From Halopiger xanaduensis SH-6 (GTDB lineage Archaea; Halobacteriota; Halobacteria; Halobacteriales; Natrialbaceae): a stretch of DNA of 64,000 bases. The DNA lies in contig NC_015666.1 in assembly GCF_000217715.1 (NCBI RefSeq), positions 1,066,270-1,130,269 of the forward strand. The letters run 5' to 3'. Below are positions 2,536-36,122 of the stretch, piece by piece. The notes below the pieces were generated by a model. That model was not told where the DNA came from and made no database searches. It worked only from the letters and a program-made list of their open reading frames with translations. Each line of letters begins with the position of its first letter. The first letter of the stretch is position 1. The position numbers were made by a program, and so were the translations under genes.

Positions 2536-3768
2536 TTAGATATCTCCGCTGATGATATCCGCGACACGCTGGCGGTCAAACATTTGCTCCTCTTCAGGAA
2601 TCTGTGGATACGGTTCACCGTTCTGGTAGCCGGGCCACTCGCCGAACTGGTCGGGATAGAGCTGTTTCGCGGTCATTTCAAGCTGGAACAGGTTGAGAAT
2701 CGGACCCTGTCGTCGCGCACCCTGGGCGTAGACGTTGCCCTCCTTGACGGCGGTGAGTTCGCTGGCAACCTCGTGGTTTTCGAGGGTCTTCCGAATCTCG
2801 TCAGGGTTGAAATACGCCGTCATCGAACCGAGGATGAGCAACACGTCCGGATCCGCTTCAAGGAGCAGTTCGTAGTCGAACGGCATATTTCGCCCGCTTT
2901 CGCCGTATCCCCCTCCGAAGGCCTCGGACAGCGTGTCGGTGACCCCCATCGGGCGCGTGTGTGCGGCATAGTAGCCCGGATGGTTCATCTTGTAGCCCCA
3001 TCCCTTGTGATCTTCCGACGACGAGAACAACACCAGCGCCGCGGTCGGTCGCCCGCTCTCCGGCGGGCGTTTCTCCGCGATAGTCTGAACCATCGAGTCG
3101 TGGACGGACGCGAGAGCCTCGTACCGTTCGTCTTCTCCGAGCAACTGTGCGACCCTGCCGAAGATTTCCCATAACGTGTAGTACTCGTACTGGTCTTTCC
3201 AGCCCTCTGGCGGCGTCCGATTGGTGCCACTGAGCGCGTTTCCGAACCACGGCGCGACCTTCTCCGCGATCTCTTGCACGTCGTTGTTGTCCCATCCATC
3301 GGCGGTCGCAACTTTCGCCGGGTCAGCGATGTGGACATCGCTGTCGAGTTCGTACAGTTTCTCCTTCTTCGGTGGCCACGAGTTGTACAACCCCTCCCAG
3401 TCGATAGAAATCCCGTCGAAGTGGCGTGTTAACTTCCGGTACAACCCTTGGTGGTATTCTGGCGCGAACATCGCGTTCATATCGTCGCTTCGACCGAGCG
3501 CCAGCACCATGTCGGCGTGGTGGCCTAGCATCGTGAAGATATCTTCGGGTTCCGAGTCGAGCGTGACCTTGCCTGCTGGCGCGAGCGTCGCCGAGTACGA
3601 ACTGTCCTTGGTAGTCGTCTCCTCCTCCGTAGTCGTCTCGGTAGTAGTGTTCTCCGACCCGGAGTCGCTGGCACAGCCGGCAAACAGTCCGCCGCCCATA
3701 ACTGCGCCGCCGTGTTTTATGTAGCCTCTGCGCGTCGGTGCCGTGTGGTTACTGGAATTGTCTGCCAT
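2536..3768 (-). CDS. Iron-siderophore ABC transporter substrate-binding lipoprotein
   Basis: 410 residues. The N-terminus carries a Tat motif (TRRGYIK) and a lipobox (LFAGC, about residues 28-32) followed by a Thr/Glu-rich linker, so the protein is exported folded and anchored on the cell surface. The remainder resembles the FepB/BtuF class III binding proteins: an early beta-strand with SEPEDIFTMLGHHADMVLAL, a middle VALVLF-like strand and a late LLEADPDVLLIL strand. No permease or ATPase gene is adjacent, so it is an orphan component. A perfect repressor-type inverted repeat lies 5 bases before the start. G+C and codon use are visibly lower than in neighbouring genes and a 12-bp direct repeat flanks it, suggesting acquisition. 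The exact ligand is unknown. Confidence 0.85.
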   Translation of the reverse strand: MADNSSNHTAPTRRGYIKHGGAVMGGGLFAGCASDSGSENTTTETTTEEETTTKDSSYSATLAPAGKVTLDSEPEDIFTMLGHHADMVLALGRSDDMNAMFAPEYHQGLYRKLTRHFDGISIDWEGLYNSWPPKKEKLYELDSDVHIADPAKVATADGWDNNDVQEIAEKVAPWFGNALSGTNRTPPEGWKDQYEYYTLWEIFGRVAQLLGEDERYEALASVHDSMVQTIAEKRPPESGRPTAALVLFSSSEDHKGWGYKMNHPGYYAAHTRPMGVTDTLSEAFGGGYGESGRNMPFDYELLLEADPDVLLILGSMTAYFNPDEIRKTLENHEVASELTAVKEGNVYAQGARRQGPILNLFQLEMTAKQLYPDQFGEWPGYQNGEPYPQIPEEEQMFDRQRVADIISGDI

Positions 3769-3772
3769 GTAG

Positions 3773-3788
3773 TTTAGGCCAGCCTAAA
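3773..3788. promoter_or_regulatory. DtxR/SirR-type metal-repressor operator
   Basis: TTTAGGCCAGCCTAAA is a perfect 7-bp inverted repeat with a 2-bp centre, placed between the start codon at 3768 and an A/T-rich TATA-like stretch at about 3800-3812. It matches the TTAGG..CCTAA core known for DtxR/IdeR-family iron and manganese repressors, which haloarchaea encode. Binding would block a leaderless transcript of the iron-binding protein when metal is plentiful. Confidence 0.75.
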
Positions 3789-3868
3789 TAATGTTAGTCT
3801 TTTCGATATTTTTGCCCTCCACACACGATCGCTCCATCATGAATATCCGAGCTATCGCTATTTGAGGA

Positions 3869-3880
3869 TTTCAACAGGGC
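3869..3880 (+). repeat. Right copy of the 12-bp direct repeat flanking the iron-binding protein gene
   Basis: TTTCAACAGGGC, identical to 2437-2448 and about 1.43 kb from it. The stretch 3789-4075 otherwise holds the promoter of the binding-protein gene and no gene I can support. Confidence 0.6.
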
Positions 3881-4075
3881 TGAGTGAGCGGAATCCGACG
3901 TAGACTAAACACACCGAGACGGCGAACGTTCCTCATGCCACCCGCGTCATCGGTGCCTCGAGACCGGTCACGGTATCGACTTATCGACTCGAGATACCGT
4001 CCGGAACTGTTGCTTGGTATCTCTGGCCATCGAATCCTCAGCCTCTCCTCTCCCTCTCGAGGTGTCCGCTCCCGT

Positions 4076-26362: not shown

Positions 26363-26886
26363 ACCCGGAGAGAGAGCCCGGCTGCCGCGGTGGCCGCGCC
26401 GGCGACGGCGCGGTCACACAACGTTGCCCGACTCTCCGAGTCGCGCAACGCGCGCGCGAGGAAAGTCCCCCCACCAGTTCGGGCGGGTGACCGGACGCAA
26501 GTCCGGAGCGGGAGACCGCTGGCTCTGGAACAGAAACGACACGTCTCGGCCCGACCGATGATGCGCGCGAACCCGACCGCGAGGAAGGGGAGCTAACCCG
26601 CAGAGGACGGGCGTTTCTCGCACCCTCGGTGCGAGAGCCGCCGACAGGCGAGCGGCGGACGCCGCGCGCCGCGTGCGGTCGTTCGACGCGGTTCGAACCC
26701 GCGGGTCGCGCTCGGCGCGACTGACCGCACTGCGACGGCCGAGGATCGATGGAACGGCGAACCCTCACCGGTGCAAGCCCGCGCCGTGGTAGCCCGAACG
26801 CCCCGCGGCCCTTCGGGTCGCGGACGGCGCGGACGCTCAGCCGAATGCCGGGCCGAACAGAAGGGGGCTTACTCCTCTCACCGATT
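26363..26886 (+). ncRNA. rnpB: RNase P RNA
   Basis: The catalytic RNA that removes tRNA 5' leaders. Conserved elements: GAGGAAAGTCCCC at about 26458-26470 (CR I, 5' strand of P4), the CR II/III-type AACAGAAACGACA at about 26529, ACCGGTGCAAGCCCG near 26767, and GAACAGAAGGGGGCTTAC at about 26854-26871 (CR V, 3' strand of P4; GGGGG pairs with CCCCC of CR I). I could also pair the ends: CGGAGAGAG at 26366-26374 with CTCTCACCG at 26875-26883 (8 of 9 pairs) as P1. The ends are therefore approximate to a few bases. Several long G+C-rich helices explain the about 520-nt length. Confidence 0.93.
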
Positions 26887-33227: not shown

Positions 33228-34619
33228 TCAGGGTCGGGGTTCGAAGTACTCCCGAAGCTCTCGCCCGAACTCCTCGAGCAGCGCCGCGACCCCGTCGTCG
33301 ACCAGCACTTCGTAGTCGTCCTCGAGGGCCGTCTCGATGTGCGCGCCGAGGCCGACGTCGAACAGGCGGTCGCTCTCCAGAAAGTCGCGGGCGGCGGTGA
33401 ACTCCCGCTCGCGCTCGGTGACGTATCGGTCGTCCGCGATGAACGGTCCGTAGGCGTCGGGGTCGTCGGCGTAAGCCTCGTAGAACCCTTCCGCGTGGCC
33501 CTGGACGTGGACCGGCGGCCCCTCGTGGCGCTCGACGGCGGGGCGCTCGGCAACTGCGAGTTCAGCGAATACCACGGCCGTATCATCGGCGAACGTCGTC
33601 GCGCGGAACACGTCGAAGCCGCGGTCGTCCAACCCCTGCGTGATCCCTGCCAGCGATTTCCGGAGCTGCGGATAGAGCTGGTCCTCGACGAGGTCCGGCG
33701 CGTCGAACCGCACCGCGACCGGCGTCGTCCCGCGCCGCTCGAGGTGGTCGCGGAGTTCCGATTCGGAGAGCGGGTCGGGGTCGACCGATTTGAAGTATTC
33801 GACGGCCGGCTCGGCGAGGAACTCGCGGGCGTAGTGCTGGAACCGGGCGACGTTGTCGGGCGAGCAGACAGCGGCGACGTTGCGCTCGGGATCGGTCGGG
33901 TCGATGACGACGAGCGGGTCATCAAAGGTTTCTCGCCCGTGGACCTCCGGATCGAGTTCGACTTGGGGATGCCAGTCGACCGCGGCCTCGAGCAGGTCGC
34001 GGAAGCCGCCGTACTCGCAGACCAGCAGCTCGGTGAGGTAGCCGCTGAACCCCCGCGTCCGGAGGTCGCTGCCGTAGGCGCCGATCCCCTTCAGGAACTG
34101 CTTCGCGAGGCGCACGTCACCCGCGAGGTCGTCGTCGAGCCGTTCCTCGAGGTACTGCGTGTGGAAGGGAGTCCGATCGACGGCCGAGCGGATCTCGGTC
34201 GCCGACTCGAGCCGGAAGCAGGGGACGACGTCGACGTCGAACCCCTCGACGGTCCCCTTGACGTAGGGGTGTTCGGCGTACTCCTCGTGGCCCTCCGGCA
34301 GCGTGGCGTGGCCGACCTCGAGACCGTACTGCTCGAGCGTCTCGCGGTCCAGTTCCGGCGGAAAGCGGACGAAGATATCGATATCGCGGTCGCCGCTGAT
34401 CCACGTGTTCCGTGCGGTCGAACCCACCTGCAACACGTCGGCGTCCGGACACAGGTCGGTCGCGGCCGCCTCGGCGCGCTCGGCGAGCCGCTCGGCGACC
34501 TCGCGCAACCGCTCGCGCTCGTCCGCGTCGGGGTCGACGCGCTCGCGAACCGTCGCGAGGACGGCCTCGAGGTCGTCGCGCTCGCCCGTCTCGTCGCCGT
34601 CTGCCTGCTCGTCGCTCAT
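33228..34619 (-). CDS. cca: CCA-adding enzyme (archaeal class I tRNA nucleotidyltransferase)
   Basis: 463 residues. Motifs: QVGSTARNTWISGDRDIDIFV (GS then DxD catalytic site, about 55-75), VEGFDVDVVPCFRLES (third Asp), RLAKQFLKGIGAYGSDLRTRGFSGYLTELLV (central domain). It adds CCA to tRNA 3' ends, which fits that none of the tRNAs seen here encode CCA. The start at 34619 is chosen because the protein shows halophilic composition only from MSDEQADGDETG. It is divergent from the tRNA-Asn gene, 146 bases away. Confidence 0.93.
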   Translation of the reverse strand: MSDEQADGDETGERDDLEAVLATVRERVDPDADERERLREVAERLAERAEAAATDLCPDADVLQVGSTARNTWISGDRDIDIFVRFPPELDRETLEQYGLEVGHATLPEGHEEYAEHPYVKGTVEGFDVDVVPCFRLESATEIRSAVDRTPFHTQYLEERLDDDLAGDVRLAKQFLKGIGAYGSDLRTRGFSGYLTELLVCEYGGFRDLLEAAVDWHPQVELDPEVHGRETFDDPLVVIDPTDPERNVAAVCSPDNVARFQHYAREFLAEPAVEYFKSVDPDPLSESELRDHLERRGTTPVAVRFDAPDLVEDQLYPQLRKSLAGITQGLDDRGFDVFRATTFADDTAVVFAELAVAERPAVERHEGPPVHVQGHAEGFYEAYADDPDAYGPFIADDRYVTEREREFTAARDFLESDRLFDVGLGAHIETALEDDYEVLVDDGVAALLEEFGRELREYFEPRP

Positions 34620-34765: not shown

Positions 34766-34871
34766 GCCGAAGTAGCTCAGATGGTAGAGCACCTCGCTGT
34801 TACGGCGATTCAGGTCTTGCCTGTTCGCCGCAGATACGAGGTTGTCCCAGGTTCGAGTCCTGGCTTCGGCG
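34766..34871 (+). tRNA. tRNA-Asn (GTT) with intron
   Basis: Cloverleaf: acceptor GCCGAAG with CTTCGGC, discriminator G, D-arm GCTC..GAGC, anticodon stem CCTCG/CGAGG, and T-arm CCAGG TTCGAGT CCTGG. The anticodon loop starts CTGTTA (anticodon GTT at 34799-34801), and about 33 bases at 34803-34835 intervene before the last loop base. The insertion sits after position 37, the canonical archaeal site, and can form a BHB with CGGCG and CGCCG stems. No CCA encoded and, unlike the other four tRNA genes here, no 3'-end repeat array follows. Confidence 0.93.
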
Positions 34872-34976
34872 CTTCTTCATAACCCTTTTCCAACCAATAG
34901 TCGCGACGCTCCTCGAGCCTCGCATCCGTTCACTTTCGGACGCGGATTTATCTCGGATACCGCGGCGAGTATCGGC

Positions 34977-35441
34977 ATGGCAGAGCGAACGGGGCCCTAC
35001 GACGAGCTTCGAGAACCGCAGAAGCGCGGACAGGCAACCGAGGCCATTCTCCGATCCGCATTCGTTGTCCGTGACATCCCCATTCTCGTTCCCGCCTACG
35101 ATAACGAGCCGTACGATCTGGTCGTCGAGGTCGGCGGTCGATTTCACCGCATTCAGTGCAAAACGGCCTACCGGAAAAGCGAGGGAACGGTAGCGTTCGA
35201 AACGGTCAGTACACGCAAACGAGGCGACGGTTACGACAGGGAGGACTACGACGGGCGGGCGGAGTACTTCGCGGTCTACGATCCGGTCAACGACAGTTGC
35301 TACCTAATCTCGGTTTCCGACGCCGCGACCGGAAAAATGGAGATCCGGTTCAGAGAGCCAAAGAACGGGCAACGGGTCGGCATCAATTGGGCTGAGGACT
35401 ATCGACTCGACGAGCAACTCGAGGAACTTCGGCAGCCGTAA
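34977..35441 (+). CDS. PD-(D/E)XK nuclease-fold protein
   Basis: 154 residues. EPYDLVVEVGGRFHRIQCKTAY shows the PD-(D/E)XK core: Asp in PYDLVVE, then a strand ending QCK in place of (D/E)xK, with Arg/Lys-rich TRKRGDGYDREDYDG after it and WAEDYRLDEQLEEL at the end. The shape matches the small archaeal group annotated as group I intron-type PD-(D/E)XK endonucleases. It lies 106 bases after the intron-containing tRNA-Asn, same direction. It could nick DNA or RNA. QxK instead of ExK may alter metal binding, so activity is uncertain. Confidence 0.72.
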   Translation: MAERTGPYDELREPQKRGQATEAILRSAFVVRDIPILVPAYDNEPYDLVVEVGGRFHRIQCKTAYRKSEGTVAFETVSTRKRGDGYDREDYDGRAEYFAVYDPVNDSCYLISVSDAATGKMEIRFREPKNGQRVGINWAEDYRLDEQLEELRQP

Positions 35442-35531
35442 CCGGCCGGTCGAGTCGGCCGGTCCGCTTTCGAGGCGGCCGACCGTCGTCCGAGGGGAGC
35501 TATTATCGCCCTCCGGCGTGCACACACGCGT

Positions 35532-36122
35532 ATGACAGTCGATCAGGACGACAGGCGGAGTACCGACGATCACGGCCACGACGTCATCGATCCGCTCTGC
35601 GTCGGGATCGTGACGGTCTCGAGTTCGCGCGCGCAGGCGGACGAAGCAGACCCGGACGATCCGGGCGGCGACACGATTCGGGAGTGTTTCGAGGACGAGG
35701 GCCACGAAGTACAGGAGCGCGTGCTCGTCCGCGACGACTACTCGGCGATCCGGACGGCCGTGCGCGGCCTCGTCGCGCGCCGGGATATCGACGTCGTACT
35801 CACGACCGGCGGGACTGGCGTCACCGCCGACGACGTCTCGCCGGAGGCGACCTCGTCGCTGTTCGAGCGCGAACTGCCAGGCTTCGGCGAACTCTTCCGC
35901 TCGCTCTCGTGGGAGGAGGTCGGCACCCGCGCGATGGCCTCGCGCGCGACGGCCGGCATCGCGGTCGATACGCCTGTCTTCTGCCTGCCGGGGAGCAAGA
36001 GCGCCTGCCGAACCGCCTGCGAGGAACTGATCGTCCCCGAGGCGCCCCACCTCGCGGGGCTGGCCACGCGCCACCGGAAGGATACGACCGACCGGTCGCT
36101 GTCGGCCTACGGCGACGAGTAA
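35532..36122 (+). CDS. moaB: MoaB/MogA molybdopterin adenylyltransferase family protein
   Basis: 196 residues. Two family motifs are clear: LTTGGTGVTADDVSPEAT (MPT-binding GGTG loop) and FCLPGSKSACRTACEELIVPEAPHL (PGSxxA). In archaea this protein adenylates molybdopterin on the way to molybdenum or tungsten cofactors. An acidic N-terminal extension of about 22 residues precedes the fold. No other moa gene lies nearby in the window. The single-copy gene upstream of rpa3 is in the same direction, with a 137-base gap. Confidence 0.9.
   Translation: MTVDQDDRRSTDDHGHDVIDPLCVGIVTVSSSRAQADEADPDDPGGDTIRECFEDEGHEVQERVLVRDDYSAIRTAVRGLVARRDIDVVLTTGGTGVTADDVSPEATSSLFERELPGFGELFRSLSWEEVGTRAMASRATAGIAVDTPVFCLPGSKSACRTACEELIVPEAPHLAGLATRHRKDTTDRSLSAYGDE

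Follow-up and report, generated by a model that had tools for sequence, protein, structure and literature searches.

The nuclease SegB is a GIY-YIG enzyme. Together with other free-standing homing endonucleases of T-even phages it is associated with tRNA genes, cuts within them and co-converts their neighbours, according to the accessible part of PMC13096335. A second nuclease, I-Ssp6803I, has its gene in a group I intron inside a tRNA gene (Synechocystis tRNA-fMet; PDB 2OST), and its specificity for the anticodon region has been published; both points are taken from the available portion of PMC1995217. Randau and Soll have proposed that archaeal tRNA introns shield tRNA genes from mobile elements (excerpts of PMC4390854 and PMC3293823), and the available part of the latter article acknowledges no direct evidence tying disrupted tRNA genes to mobile-element integration.

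The gene described here, from the haloarchaeon Halopiger xanaduensis SH-6, can be set beside each of these. On sequence grounds, it looks like a small selfish DNA cutter. It has the Pfam family, fold and Q-x-K core of I-Ssp6803I; unlike that enzyme's gene, it stands free downstream of its tRNA gene, and the tRNA intron is either a 33-nt archaeal-type intron with no ORF or, at other loci, absent. Like SegB it is free-standing and associated with a tRNA gene; cutting and co-conversion are properties of SegB that are proposed here, and immunity through an intron or a stem swap is not described for SegB in the accessible part of PMC13096335. With Randau and Soll, as represented in those excerpts, the present reading shares the idea that the intron protects the tRNA gene, but their enemy is the integrating plasmid or virus, whereas the enemy proposed here, which would also be the carrier, is an intron-linked homing nuclease that cuts at the anticodon. 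Family membership and the protective-intron idea are already known.

The window, a stretch of 64,000 nucleotides (NC_015666.1, positions 1,066,270 to 1,130,269), has the following features at and around the nuclease gene, in window coordinates:

33231 to 34619, minus strand: cca, CCA tRNA nucleotidyltransferase (TIGR03671, E 8e-155); conserved host neighbour, outside the element
34766 to 34871, plus strand: tRNA-Asn(GTT) gene with intron (Rfam RF00005, 59.3 bits; ARAGORN gtt i(38,33)); proposed homing target, in its anticodon arm
34803 to 34835, plus strand: 33-nt intron after anticodon-loop position 37 (ARAGORN); absent from the congener G001
34884 to 35488, no strand: approximate extent of the insert by comparison with the empty G001 site, with the nuclease gene as its sole content; edges placed by eye
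34977 to 35441, plus strand: PDDEXK_5 (I-Ssp6803I-type) nuclease gene, 154 aa (PF11645, 2OST profile, Foldseek, VIA); proposed free-standing homing endonuclease
35040 to 35162, plus strand: catalytic codons E22 (35040-35042), D47 (35115-35117), Q60 (35154-35156) and K62 (35160-35162), from conservation in relatives
35532 to 36122, plus strand: moaB-like gene (molybdenum cofactor synthesis domain; TIGR00177 above cut-off); conserved downstream host neighbour

Rfam, ARAGORN and the ORF coordinates agree that the nuclease ORF starts 106 bases after the end of the tRNA-Asn gene, on the same strand, and the initial annotation was also correct that this is the only intron-bearing tRNA of the window, the other four tRNAs being detected as intronless. 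The intron, called by ARAGORN with introns allowed on locus L002 (the same place), is of the archaeal tRNA type and carries no ORF; the pre-tRNA folds with a z of -4.57 relative to shuffles. An endonuclease encoded by a group I intron is ruled out, since the nuclease ORF lies outside the tRNA gene and the intron is only 33 nt long. A group I intron as such was also rejected: at the gathering threshold, the Rfam matches in the window are tRNAs and RNase P RNA alone. The archaeal RNase P RNA gene lies at 26366-26883.

The window nuclease belongs to the PF11645 / I-Ssp6803I family and shares its fold. It matches PF11645 (PDDEXK_5) at 103.3 bits against a cut-off of 26.1 bits (E 1.4e-29), and a profile built from 18 relatives has 2OST as its sole match among PDB sequences (E 6.5e-12). 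With an AlphaFold2 model (pLDDT 84.6), 2OST is the best Foldseek match (E 4.7e-8) and stands apart in VIA, with a Z of 15.6 over 141 residues at 2.8 A, all other structures reaching at most 9.5. The suspected kinship to intron-associated endonucleases is therefore borne out, I-Ssp6803I being the nearest by both profile and fold. Identity as a Holliday junction resolvase was rejected, because resolvases are among the structures at or below 9.5 and none is found among the sequence matches. Across 228 non-redundant relatives, E22 is kept in 223, D47 in 226, and Q60 and K62 in 222 each. The D, Q and K align with their 2OST counterparts, and E22 aligns with a Q in 2OST that was presumably engineered into the crystallised protein. 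The initial annotation had singled out a QxK core; it is present (Q60-C-K62) but is no departure, since the conservation of Q60 and K62 in the relatives, and the occurrence of the motif in I-Ssp6803I as well, make QxK the normal active site of the family. The further suggestion of a role at tRNA 3' ends found no support: for the window nuclease Pfam gives PF11645 only and NCBIfam nothing above cut-off, hence no 3'-end enzyme family, and the 3'-end enzyme at this locus is the divergently oriented neighbour cca (TIGR03671). Median dN/dS is 0.11 over 342 pairs of nuclease genes, and in-frame stops occur in 12 of the 228 relatives. Two- or three-domain versions are found at ten tRNA-Pro loci (L175, L177, L186, L188, L195, L196, L199, L201, L252 and L313), each with a motif-bearing nuclease domain followed by one or two repeats that have no catalytic motif; these repeats are perhaps a built-in second DNA-binding half.

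About half of the Halobacteria genomes searched (193 of 391, E 1e-4) have at least one relative. The starting alignment was picked by similarity, independently of tRNA proximity, and the loci scanned for tRNA genes (252, then 20 more) were reduced to the 228 non-redundant domains. A tRNA gene lies on the same strand within 1.2 kb upstream in 203 of them (Asp 121, Asn 49, Pro 20, Lys 8, Gly 3, Val 1 and Tyr 1), with a median gap of 204 bases between the tRNA end and the nuclease domain; eight further relatives have a tRNA within 150 bp downstream, seven on the same strand and one on the opposite strand. Adjacency in roughly 1% of relatives would be expected by chance, an estimate that assumes about 50 tRNA genes per genome, and chance is therefore no reasonable account of it. 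The search for homologues beside tRNA genes that had been suggested as a check thus came out clearly in favour of an association. Of the 17 relatives with no nearby tRNA, 14 score below 90 bits (six from Acidobacteria-group bins and eight distant haloarchaeal ones); of the other three, L306 lies near a contig end, and L009 and L092 are genuine exceptions as far as the retrieved sequence reaches. The six bacterial relatives, at 44-58 bits, have no tRNA beside them in stretches of up to 2 kb on each side. Expressed by score, linkage is found in 210 of 213 relatives at 90 bits or more and in 1 of 15 below 90 bits, and because the weak relatives are mostly away from tRNAs, linkage to tRNA genes is a trait of one branch of the superfamily.

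At three Arg(TCT) loci (L179, L183 and L180, the last called tRNA Gly by ARAGORN and grouped here with the others) a gap of 3 bases separates the end of the nuclease domain from the intron-containing tRNA that follows. Phages also encode relatives: a tRNA gene lies within 340 bp of the match in all 13 loci inspected, of 20 records found, several of the 13 being close kin. In eight of them, from halophages as well as enterobacterial phages, it is a tRNA-Asn situated 2-30 bases upstream. A tblastn search with the window protein found no plasmid-borne relatives. In Enterococcus phage EFP01 (L281) a ROOL RNA, at 3412-3998, adjoins the relative and its tRNA cluster. Some relatives lie in long reading frames of up to 962 aa; an intein reading was rejected for the two longest (L059 and L060), which are ordinary genes beside tRNA-Asp, and five other long-frame loci (L061-L065) adjoin tRNA-Asn.

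A gene serving the host in housekeeping or repair, such as one resembling a Holliday-junction resolvase, might be kept beside tRNA genes by happenstance, and both the low dN/dS and the resemblance of the fold to archaeal resolvases (VIA Z up to 9.5) would be in keeping with that. Presence in only 193 of 391 genomes, the existence of empty sites, linkage to several different tRNAs, specificity for tRNA alleles (see below) and occurrence in phage tRNA clusters all argue the other way, and we regard a housekeeping role as extremely unlikely.

An empty counterpart of the window locus exists within the same genus. Genome G001 has no relative of the window nuclease at E 0.001, and keeps the order cca, tRNA-Asn, moaB, with about 120 bp from tRNA to moaB. 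The exons of its tRNA-Asn are identical to those of the window, its moaB-like gene is 93% identical, and both the intron and the nuclease gene are absent. Identity between the two flanks stops about 13 bases past the tRNA, and a shared motif, TCCGAGGGGAGCTATTATCG, precedes moaB by roughly 40 bases in both genomes; this right edge of the insert was judged by eye, the alignment program having not placed it. Among 25 genomes of the family selected for having no Asn-type nuclease, cca adjoins the nuclease-free tRNA-Asn in all 25, and five of them have the intron.

Twelve empty tRNA-Asp loci compared with occupied relatives show the same kind of boundary: homology runs through the tRNA and, in nearly all pairs, ends 2 to 75 bases beyond it (172 bases for L295 against L052). 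The far side could be aligned in six of the twelve. In five of these (L299, L300, L301, L303 and L304) homology is picked up again 26 to 263 bases past the nuclease domain, and in the sixth, L298, there is a tRNA-Asp on each side. The other six (L286, L290, L291, L294, L295 and L305) did not align on the far side, so that a clean insert is visible only in some loci. Related genomes thus carry occupied and empty versions of a single locus, as expected of a free-standing homing endonuclease. In the tightest pairs (L033/L304, L037/L300 and L053/L301) the occupied block is 519-647 bp and just fits the nuclease gene. In the empty genomes the site is filled by 136 to 272 bp of unrelated sequence, which indicates replacement rather than bare insertion.

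At tRNA-Asp loci (for example L013, L028, L128, L288 and L297), short copies of the tRNA 3' end, 22-26 nt long, lie downstream of the gene, in most cases at a distance of 75-150 bp and at times more than once. If tRNA genes were simply general insertion hot spots, the nuclease gene could be debris of integrated elements, and such fragments are what one would cite for it: they accompany 29 of 118 occupied loci. They also accompany 11 of 20 empty ones, the tightest inserts barely hold the nuclease gene, and the association is with particular tRNA types in an orientation that is nearly always the same, leaving the debris explanation only a very slim chance. Duplicated tRNA-Asp genes were rejected as an insertion footprint because tandem copies also occur in nuclease-free loci. 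In one nuclease-free genome (G288, locus L297) tRNA-Asp is present three times at a spacing of 803 bp, which probably reflects tandem amplification in the recent past.

The intron and the nuclease go together beyond the genus of the window. An intronless tRNA-Asn match, with a missing pattern scored as intron or variant, is lacking in 31 of 49 genomes with an Asn-type nuclease and in 54 of 342 others (Fisher p 1e-11, uncorrected for kinship); L306 (genome G190), an Asn-type gene judging from its sequence, lies outside the 49, and counting it gives 31 of 50. Within genus g33 the match is lacking in 19 of 25 genomes with the nuclease and 2 of 21 without it (p 6e-6), and within family f1 in 8 of 18 and 13 of 83, respectively (p 0.01), the counts behind both tests, like the genus and genome lists used for the Asn comparison above and the Asp comparison below, having been transcribed by hand. 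At tRNA-Lys, the intronless site is absent from nine of nine Lys-type genomes, compared with 8 of 27 chosen relatives (p 3e-4). The counts are phylogenetically non-independent, and only the within-genus contrasts take kinship into account; the nuclease types per genome rest on fetched hits and are possibly incomplete, given second or weaker hits in several genomes.

The state of the nuclease also differs with the intron. Across 53 non-redundant Asn-type loci, the nuclease is intact in 32 of 33 with an intron and in 10 of 20 without one (Fisher p 8e-5). The four catalytic residues are preserved in all 33 intron-bearing loci, one of which carries an in-frame stop; the 20 intronless loci include eight with an altered Q60 or K62, one interrupted by a stop and one whose start region is gone. 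This tally takes in L092 and L306, whose retrieved sequence contains no tRNA and whose class was taken from the genome. L086 belongs to the Asn type on sequence, although its tRNA is called Val by ARAGORN. Judged by kind and genus, the eight catalytic losses look like about six separate events. Three of the eight are Q60E, which restores the commoner ExK motif, so that the active site may still function. Ten intact-looking Asn nucleases sit beside an intronless tRNA-Asn (L006, L008, L066, L083, L084, L125, L131, L133, L210 and L212), two of which, L083 and L084, have a different anticodon stem. Full-length ORFs with altered catalytic residues are retained at L071, L090, L092, L143, L145, L148 and L306, possibly because of a secondary role or because inactivation is recent. 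The initial annotation had raised a mobile-intron origin for the gene. The joint absence of intron and nuclease in G001, and the way an intact active site tracks the intron, speak for a mobile-intron connection in an unexpected form, the intron itself being ORF-less. The intron as a universal requirement was rejected, since the commonest hosts are intronless tRNA-Asp genes.

In the tRNA-Asp genes adjacent to a nuclease, the anticodon-stem pair 28:42 has two common states, A-T or G-C, and these follow the nuclease phylogeny. Clade A, with 73 of the 118 non-redundant nucleases in the tree, has A-T at 68 loci, CGGCC at 2, TCACC at 1, G-C at 1 (L087, on the longest branch) and one unread. The remaining 45 nucleases (the G clades) have G-C at 43 loci and A-T at 2, namely L108, a pseudogene, and L264, from a metagenome bin in which both alleles occur once each and the nuclease is intact. 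Clade therefore predicts the 28:42 state at 111 of 114 loci having either pair. The Asp-type fragments L197 and L275, too short for the tree, and L318, not placed in it, have the adjacent alleles CAACC, CGACC and CGACC, respectively. Parsimony on the tree requires 6 changes for positions 28 and 42, where shuffling gives 37 on average, and 17 for 7:66, where it gives 34. Both clades occur in 13 genera, and the allele follows the clade in each, L108 being the exception in one. When every exact tRNA-Asp copy in a genome is considered, clade A loci have A only in 58 cases, neither in 3 and G only in 1, and G-clade loci have G only in 36 and A only in 1, so that all exact copies agree with the clade at 94 of 99 loci; L019 (genome G027), from outside the class sample, was omitted from this and from the genus comparison. 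Five genomes have both alleles (G130, G300, G308, G324 and G336), and none of them has an Asp-type nuclease, G308 having the Asn-type L092. Window nuclease residues 75, 79 and 117 separate the Asp clades, being N, Q and T in clade A and mostly K, K or S, and G elsewhere, and are candidates for reading pair 28:42.

A mobile or homing nuclease whose target lies elsewhere near the tRNA 3' end might have the tRNA allele and the intron as mere passengers. Co-conversion during homing would drag nearby tRNA variants along in just this manner, and introns or variants do also occur in 54 of the 342 genomes that have no Asn nuclease. However, the association of allele with clade is strong at 28:42 (Cramer V 0.91) and near zero at 7:66 (0.10), and position 66 sits between 42 and the nuclease gene, so that plain linkage would predict the opposite. 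Moreover, none of the five genomes listed above with both alleles has an Asp-type nuclease, and active-site losses concentrate where the intron is absent. We consider the passenger explanation improbable, if the most serious of the alternatives. Association with anticodon-stem alleles might instead be expected of a protein acting on RNA, such as an anticodon nuclease or toxin, with the stem swap making the tRNA resistant. An intron leaves the mature tRNA unaltered, yet intact nucleases track introns at Asn and Lys, which makes a tRNA-cleaving toxin unlikely; the protein has the fold and motif expected of a DNA endonuclease, and patchy presence with empty sites is better suited to a mobile gene. 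We give this possibility very little credence.

We think it likely, with good though not full confidence, that the window gene family consists of free-standing homing endonucleases whose hosts are immune through an intron or a compensatory stem swap. Counting against this are the ten intact-looking Asn nucleases beside an intronless tRNA-Asn, the Asp exceptions L087, L108 and L264, and the possibility that Q60E proteins stay active. The 28:42 pattern at Asp and the intron pattern at Asn and Lys together point to the anticodon arm as the proposed cut site. A dimer or, on the model of I-Ssp6803I, possibly a larger assembly would recognise the anticodon-arm DNA of one tRNA gene, DNA that would be an imperfect palindrome given that the RNA forms a stem there. 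The nuclease would cut copies of the tRNA gene that do not have the element, and repair from an element-bearing chromosome would copy both the tRNA allele and the nuclease gene just downstream. Protection could then arise in two ways. An intron at 37/38 would split the site, as proposed for the window tRNA-Asn, for Lys and probably for Arg-TCT. At Asp, a swapped anticodon-stem pair would change both half-sites with the tRNA unharmed; at the DNA level the stem forms an inverted repeat, so that a single compensatory change affects both palindromic halves. Family, fold, linkage to tRNA genes, empty sites and the allele and intron associations are observed; that the nuclease cuts, where it does so, that it homes and that immunity accounts for the associations is what we infer from these sequence patterns. 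In combination with the anticodon-region specificity published for I-Ssp6803I (PMC1995217, in part), the patterns are most simply explained by homing. Purifying selection, patchy presence and scattered pseudogenes also fit the gain-decay-loss cycle known for homing genes.

We further favour, with rather less assurance, a broader proposal: that the haloarchaeal introns at 37/38, in at least tRNA-Asn and tRNA-Lys and perhaps Arg(TCT), are immunity alleles both spread and maintained by homing nucleases that cut the anticodon arm and are encoded just outside the tRNA gene, with loss of the intron forcing loss of the active site; and that at tRNA-Asp two rival lineages each carry a self-resistant allele, attack the other's, and convert tRNA-Asp back and forth within genera. 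In the open PMC literature, most subscription journals lying outside that scope, we found no account of a free-standing, tRNA-gene-bound archaeal branch with immunity through an intron or stem swap.

Why archaeal tRNA genes have introns, and why these turn over so fast, is an old question. The nuclease family is a common, small agent that could make a tRNA intron advantageous, and its association with introns would supply a candidate agent for the protective-intron idea, with occupied and empty genomes paired within one genus. At tRNA-Asp, a compensatory RNA base pair could be selected for changing both halves of a palindromic DNA target.
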